From Lichenicola cladoniae (GTDB lineage Bacteria > Pseudomonadota > Alphaproteobacteria > Acetobacterales > Acetobacteraceae), in contig NZ_CP053708.1 in assembly GCF_013201075.1 (NCBI RefSeq), positions 1,615,501 through 1,679,500 on the forward strand: 64,000 nucleotides of DNA, read 5' to 3'. Made by a program: the position numbers and the translations under genes. The number at the start of each line of letters is the position of its first letter. Position 1 is the stretch's first letter. Below are positions 3,901 to 5,456 of the stretch, piece by piece. The notes under the pieces were generated by a model. The model was not told the origin of the DNA. It worked only from the letters and a program-made list of their open reading frames with translations, and made no database searches.

Positions 3901-4305
3901 ATGAACGGCAAGGCCGGCGAGCTCGCGATCGACGATCCGGCGACGCTGGCGGAGGTGACCTCGCATGTGGCGCGCTACGAGGCGGCGTTGATGGCGAACG
4001 ATTTCGCCGTGCTGGACGAGCTGTTCCGGCACTCGCCGCTGACCCGCCGCTTCGGGGCGACCGAGCAGCTATACGGGTTCGAGGCGATCGCCGCCTATCG
4101 CCGGGACCGCCCGGGTGGCGCGCCGCCTCGTCGTATCCTGCGACAATCGATCACCACCTACGGCACCGATTTCGCCACCGCTGACATCGAGTTCCAGCCG
4201 ATCGGCACCGACCGGCTCGGACGGCAGACCCAGAGCTGGGTTCGCACCGGGAAGGGCTGGCGGGTCGTCTCCGCGCATGTCTCCTTCATGTCGGTCCCAG
4301 ATTAG
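3901..4305 (+). CDS. hpxZ: HpxZ/AtzH-like protein (SnoaL/NTF2 fold, DUF3225)
   Basis: A 134-residue NTF2-like protein of the HpxZ/AtzH family. AtzH is reported as a small amidohydrolase acting before AtzE in cyanuric acid degradation. Family features seen: VARYEAALMANDFAVLDELF near the start, the RFGATEQLYGFEAIAAYR segment and the final strand RVVSAHVSFM. It starts 6 bp after the amidase stop and completes the three-gene operon. No clear terminator follows. Confidence 0.85.
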   Translation: MNGKAGELAIDDPATLAEVTSHVARYEAALMANDFAVLDELFRHSPLTRRFGATEQLYGFEAIAAYRRDRPGGAPPRRILRQSITTYGTDFATADIEFQPIGTDRLGRQTQSWVRTGKGWRVVSAHVSFMSVPD

Positions 4306-4482
4306 TCAGGCCCGGGATGTCCGCTTCCGGATCGGCTACGTCCCACCGCCAGGCGATTCCCACCGACCGTGTCCAGCGCGAGCGCTCGGCTGCCCGAACT
4401 TCCGATGCTGCCATCATCGCTCTTGGCCGCTACGCCGCGGTCTGGCACTGATGCCGCAGTTCTGACGGCTTCGGGGTTCGCG

Positions 4483-4779
4483 ATGCGACTGGTTCGGCTT
4501 GTTTAGCTTTATCTGCCCCTGCTCGGGGTGCCTCTGCTGCTGTCCGCTTGTGGCGGGCATTCGAACTCGGCACCGACCTTGTCGGTTTCCTGTAACGGCA
4601 GCCTGGTCCTGGCCGGCGCCAGCTCGATCGACGTGACCTACCTCGCCGGCAAGAGCACAATGCTCAGCTTCCCGGACCCGGCCAACCCGGGCCATGTCGG
4701 ATCGTTGCCGGTGTCCGACGGTCAGCCCTGCACGATCACCCCGTCGGTGAACAAGGCCGACAAGCCGGGCGCGTCCTGA
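4483..4779 (+). pseudogene. Small lipoprotein gene interrupted by TAG in its signal peptide
   Basis: Reading from ATG 4483 gives MRLVRLV, then TAG (4504-4506), then LYLPLLGVPLLLSACGGHS. That would be a textbook lipoprotein signal peptide with lipobox LSAC if the TAG were a sense codon. The frame then stays open to the TGA at 4777-4779 (about 91 residues after the amber). Starting at the downstream GTG 4528 would leave only seven residues before the lipobox Cys, too short for export. The mature part (Ser/Thr-rich, two further Cys) has no recognised domain. A gene inactivated by a single nonsense change is the simplest reading; sequencing error or readthrough are alternatives. Confidence 0.6.
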
Positions 4780-4799
4780 TCGTCCAGCCGGTCGCCTGG

Positions 4800-5027
4800 A
4801 TGCATCACGGCTACGGCTACCAGCCGGGGTTCGGGCATCACAATTTCGGCGGCGGCGGCGGCTGGCTGACCCACATGATCATCTCGTCGGTGGTGCACGG
4901 GCTGATCTACGGGGCTATATTTCGCCTGCTGCGCCATCTCAGCCTGACCGAGATCGTGCTGCTGGTCGTGCTGGTGATCGGCGGGATCTACCTGTGGAAC
5001 CAGAACCGGTACAACCGGCGTTGGTGA
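4800..5027 (+). CDS. Small Gly/His-rich membrane protein, unknown
   Basis: A 75-residue protein with a Tyr/Gly/His-rich start (HHGYGYQPGFGHHNFGGGGG), a first hydrophobic segment (MIISSVVHGLIYGAIF) and a stronger transmembrane helix (IVLLVVLVIGGIYLW) before a basic end. It starts 20 bp after the broken lipoprotein gene, so the two were probably one unit. No family is recognised. The Gly/His-rich head could bind metal, but that is speculation. Confidence 0.6.
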   Translation: MHHGYGYQPGFGHHNFGGGGGWLTHMIISSVVHGLIYGAIFRLLRHLSLTEIVLLVVLVIGGIYLWNQNRYNRRW

Positions 5028-5073
5028 CCGCGTCCGGCTCCATCAACCCATCATTCAAGAAGGTCGACTGCCT

Positions 5074-5373
5074 ATGCCCCTGTTCGTGATCGAAGTCGAA
5101 GGCGAACCGATCGTCGTCTTTCCGGAAGACGATCTTTCGCTGGCCAAGGAAGAGGCGTCCACCGGCAACGTCACTGAAGCGCTTCAGGAATTCCAGCGCG
5201 ATGGAAAGCCGGTCTGGAGCGGAGATAGCCCGCTCAATGTCCGCGAAGCCAATCCGGACGAGACGGCCCTCTATAATGCCGGGCTCGCCGAAGCACTCGA
5301 GGAAGGCGACATCACCGAGGACGAGACCGATGAGTTCGCCGTGTTCCTGATCGAAACCGACGACATGGAATAA
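5074..5373 (+). CDS. Acidic hypothetical protein
   Basis: A 99-residue, strongly acidic soluble protein starting MPLFVIEVEGEPIVVFPEDD and ending in a Glu/Asp-rich tail. It has no signal peptide and no recognised domain. The ATG is preceded by AAGAAGG with suitable spacing, which supports translation. It sits alone between the small membrane protein and tRNA-Cys. Confidence 0.7.
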   Translation: MPLFVIEVEGEPIVVFPEDDLSLAKEEASTGNVTEALQEFQRDGKPVWSGDSPLNVREANPDETALYNAGLAEALEEGDITEDETDEFAVFLIETDDME

Positions 5374-5391
5374 ACCCTGCCGCTACGGGGA

Positions 5392-5409
5392 TCATGCCTC
5401 ATGGCATGA
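5392..5409. terminator. Hairpin between acidic ORF and tRNA-Cys
   Basis: TCATGCC/GGCATGA forms a 7-bp stem with a TCAT loop. It lies just past the ends of two converging units (5074-5373 on + and tRNA-Cys on -) and could terminate either. There is no U-run, so confidence is modest. Confidence 0.35.
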
Positions 5410-5456
5410 CCTCGGGGCGGAGGCGCACAAGTTTCGAAGGTTTGGGATCGAGGTCT

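Follow-up and report, generated by a model that had tools for sequence, protein, structure and literature searches.

In general, bacterial single-nonsense pseudogenes carry one in-frame stop in a gene that is otherwise complete and whose relatives are unbroken, as is also the case at the locus described here. Belinky and colleagues (PMC7918605) report in-frame stops with dN/dS <1 as widespread in bacterial genes, and argue that many of those with low dN/dS are read through, with lowered expression. Signal peptidase II small lipoproteins have a basic start, a hydrophobic stretch and a lipobox, and the unbroken homologues of the gene described here have the same layout, as judged by eye.

The gene lies in a 64,000-nucleotide stretch of Lichenicola cladoniae DNA, analysed as a whole and called here the window. 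It is quite probably a recent nonsense allele of a small Acetobacteraceae lipoprotein, confined to a single lineage and likely to give little or no product.

A lipoprotein-type frame with an in-frame TAG

The frame opens on the forward strand with ATG 4483. The start and codons 1–7 of the signal peptide (4483–4503) encode seven residues, and codon 8 is an in-frame TAG (4504–4506). Past the TAG there are 90 sense codons and a terminator, TGA 4777–4779, in agreement with the open frame of about 91 codons noted in the original prediction. Its placing of the TAG inside a lipoprotein signal with a lipobox was likewise borne out by the DNA and its translation. The post-stop frame encodes the remainder of the hydrophobic signal, up to the residue preceding the lipobox Cys (4507–4548, from translation and alignment), a Leu-Leu-Ser-Ala-Cys lipobox and then the 76-residue mature part, which runs from the Cys (codon 4549–4551) to the TGA (4549–4779) and has two more invariant Cys. 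The signal peptide, recognized by eye and without a predictor, ends in a lipobox whose Cys is found in all 13 aligned rows, as in lipobox-type lipoproteins. By its sequence, the window gene is such a lipoprotein, its signal broken by the TAG; lipidation and export are predicted. A terminator-like site was found within the gene (4567–4585; 0.4 expected by chance), and a promoter scan of 4250–5100 gave no site.

Homologues of the post-stop frame were found in 12 of 299 genomes of the family including its own, that is, in 11 of 298 others. The gene was present in all five genomes of the genus, and thus in all four congeners. A separate search gave seven loci. One of them, in a Rhodopila MAG (L011), was a further homologue; the other six lie on contigs of the same length as in genomes already in the family set and were counted once, for a total of 12 other copies. 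In the alignment these were 36–60% identical to the window piece. This identity, together with a third-position GC of 0.88 in the mature part, indicates that the post-stop frame is more than a chance open frame. All 12 other copies were unbroken, from the start codon (ATG in 11, GTG in G098) through a signal-like stretch and the Cys to the stop. A TAA flagged inside the match in G079 was, by its coordinates, that gene's own terminator. No second copy was detected in the window genome at E 0.001, and the plasmid collection had no match to the lipoprotein gene. On sequence grounds, the family is a small, single-copy, uncharacterised Acetobacteraceae lipoprotein.

At a threshold of E 0.1 the window piece hit nothing in Pfam or NCBIfam, and Pfam searches with ten homologues gave nothing above cut-off. 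The PDB sequence search (best E 0.03) retrieved no convincing relative, and neither did Foldseek against the PDB with the predicted model (best E 1.1). The model had six beta strands in the mature part and a mean pLDDT of 75.5, with block means of 85–92 over residues 21–80 and of 49 at both ends.

Probable start codon and possible decoding of the TAG

ATG 4483 is probably the true start, as three observations suggest. The first six codons differ from those of the congener G004 by four silent changes only, and the encoded peptide is the same. Met-Arg-Leu opens five of the 12 other copies. The anti-Shine-Dalgarno duplex upstream of ATG 4483, at −5.7 kcal/mol, was the second strongest among nine starts tested, energy being scored without spacing. 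A sister with a different start and without a conserved signal, which the original prediction named as its refutation, was therefore not what the comparison gave.

Translation could also begin past the TAG, at GTG 4528, the sole common start codon between the TAG and the Cys. The resulting 83-aa ORF is present in the sequence and might be annotated by a gene caller. However, GTG 4528 has a weak ribosome-binding duplex (−2.2 kcal/mol), the starts of the other copies lie further upstream, and the protein would have only seven residues ahead of its Cys, none of them positively charged, which is too short for a lipoprotein signal. We judged this one available start unconvincing, and such a protein highly improbable.

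The preferred reading, a nonsense allele, would involve a substitution at codon 8, within the signal peptide of a single-copy lipoprotein gene. Translation from ATG 4483 would then end after seven residues. Because proteins begun at later starts would retain little or none of the signal peptide, the exported, lipid-anchored protein would not be made, or only in traces.

The reading frame is the same before and after the TAG, which points to a substitution and not to an indel of the homopolymer type. This argues against a sequencing or assembly error behind which the gene would be unbroken in the living strain. So does the contiguity of the assembly, probably a good one: the genome is in 8 contigs, and the one with the window measures 4.8 Mb. 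On the other hand, the TAG was seen in one assembly, and apart from this one codon the gene resembles a working one. We consider an error unlikely.

The genome encodes PrfA, the release factor for TAG and TAA (484.8 bits versus a cut-off of 423.25), and the loss of PrfA that marks amber recoding is thus not seen here. The CTA anticodon was in none of the 44 tRNA genes found, a list that is incomplete in having no Ile-GAT and no Ala-TGC. ARAGORN reported 50 tRNAs, the excess coming from six stretches among the 44 that contain two genes each, so that closely spaced genes were reported twice. The two tRNAs absent from the list of this genome (G000), tRNA-Ile(GAT) and tRNA-Ala(TGC), often sit within rRNA operons, and such stretches are maybe missing or masked. 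Between 3800 and 5600, the search for RNA families returned tRNA-Cys only. Recoding, as a candidate explanation, thus left no sign in the anticodons of the 44 tRNA genes, in PrfA or in the RNA families of this interval. The neighboring gene (3901–4305) itself terminates in TAG. A tally of stop codons over 60 long ORFs was set aside, because true genes and antisense ORFs are mixed in it. The TAG of the lipoprotein gene was carried by none of the four congeners and by none of the 12 other copies, so that across these relatives the stop is not kept, as it would be in conserved readthrough.

Probable constraint after the stop and genomic neighborhood

Pairwise dN/dS between the window gene and the four congeners was 0.35–0.59, compared with 0.38–0.61 among the congeners; for these comparisons the rows G001 and G224 were trimmed from a Cys further upstream, and the additional residues faced gaps. 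A codon model was fitted to 74 codon columns, beginning at the Cys, of six out of the 13 sequences in the alignment, with a tree derived from these same data; G001 was correctly trimmed in it, and G224 was not among the six. For the branch of the window gene, omega = 1 was rejected at 2dlnL 19.3 with one degree of freedom. The free estimate of omega for the branch, 0.011, is unreliable as silent sites are near saturation, and only the rejection of 1 was used. For comparison, the G003 branch had an omega of 0.065, with 2dlnL 11.12 versus neutrality. With dN/dS in the range of the congeners and neutrality rejected, selection has probably constrained the gene along most of its branch.

Nine alignment columns were invariant in the other 12 copies. 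The window gene keeps the eight that lie past the stop; the start Met, the remaining column, falls outside the compared piece. At 90% conservation the window gene matched 14 of 16 columns and at 75% conservation 20 of 24, one of the four departures being the start Met column. There was no second stop in frame, which is weak evidence, as a new stop would result from 21 of the 873 other single changes in the frame. In the aligned sequence, no decay beyond the TAG is visible in the rest of the gene.

Inactivation or readthrough, the two options named in the original prediction, proved the right pair to weigh. The comparison favors inactivation, since the TAG is missing from all 12 other copies, no decay is visible and the 44 tRNA genes found include no suppressor. 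The event had also been called very recent. The retained constraint suggests that it fell late on the branch of the species, and a more precise date is not supported. The low dN/dS would, however, also be expected if the gene still works despite the TAG. Leaky readthrough, in which an amino acid is occasionally inserted at the TAG and a lipoprotein that the cell still needs is made in smaller amounts, would account for both the open frame past the TAG and the purifying selection on the branch, and the argument made in PMC7918605 would allow for it at a low level. Against it stand the restriction of the TAG to this one of the 13 copies compared, the PrfA of this genome and the tRNA anticodons found, and we consider it quite unlikely.

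Upstream of the lipoprotein gene are an AtzE-family amidase gene and an HpxZ/AtzH-like gene; downstream follow a 75-aa ORF, a 99-aa ORF and tRNA-Cys. The 75-aa ORF (4800–5027, forward strand) is rich in glycine and histidine and, by eye, probably encodes a membrane protein. It had two matches in this genome (the window copy and G000:C4:145536-145763), and one in each of the four congeners; the search covered 40 genomes, and the remaining 35 had none. The arrangement of the window, with the amidase and the tRNA-Cys/pcm side together, recurs in all four congeners, and HpxZ was matched in three of them, G004 being the exception. Between the amidase and the tRNA-Cys/pcm side, the congeners gave no match to the lipoprotein gene; their stretch holds, among others, one ORF of 425–490 codons, membrane-protein-like by eye. 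The interval 4306–5456, before tRNA-Cys, thus differs in gene content from the four congeners, a small lineage-specific difference. In the congener G003 (L083 4875-6282), the AtzE-like amidase matches in two pieces that start in different frames, perhaps due to a frameshift or an assembly flaw.

At the congeners' own lipoprotein loci, none of the other genes among the 13 tried from the window gave a match, except in G004, where the 75-aa ORF homologue also adjoins the lipoprotein gene, in reversed order. As the congeners' copies sit outside the amidase–tRNA-Cys/pcm stretch, the mapped positions indicate that the lipoprotein gene has moved in at least one lineage. The TAG might be a private expression throttle, with low-level readthrough supplying small amounts of a lipoprotein still under selection, from a gene position unlike that of the congeners; we regard this as very unlikely.

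Significance and comparison with known systems

The TAG, its intact relatives and their homology, PrfA and the absence of other visible lesions were observed directly; the reality of the base, the lack of a product and the tolerance of the loss are what we infer. Most likely, the lipoprotein is dispensable and the allele a recent nonsense one, an ordinary gene loss with no special decoding trick. In itself the finding matters little, as it would be one more recent gene loss. The analysis also brought to light a family of small lipoproteins in the Acetobacteraceae, without a Pfam match above cut-off and present in all five genomes of the genus. Its apparent fresh loss in one genome of the genus may serve as a natural knock-out for comparison with the congeners.

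Compared with single-nonsense pseudogenes, we saw nothing distinctive at this locus; the stop falls within the signal peptide and is the only visible sign of decay. Like the readthrough candidates of PMC7918605, the gene has dN/dS <1 on the stop-bearing branch; it differs from them in that the TAG is in none of the 12 other copies. In contrast to signal peptidase II small lipoproteins, the signal here is interrupted, and the window piece matched no Pfam or NCBIfam family in our searches.
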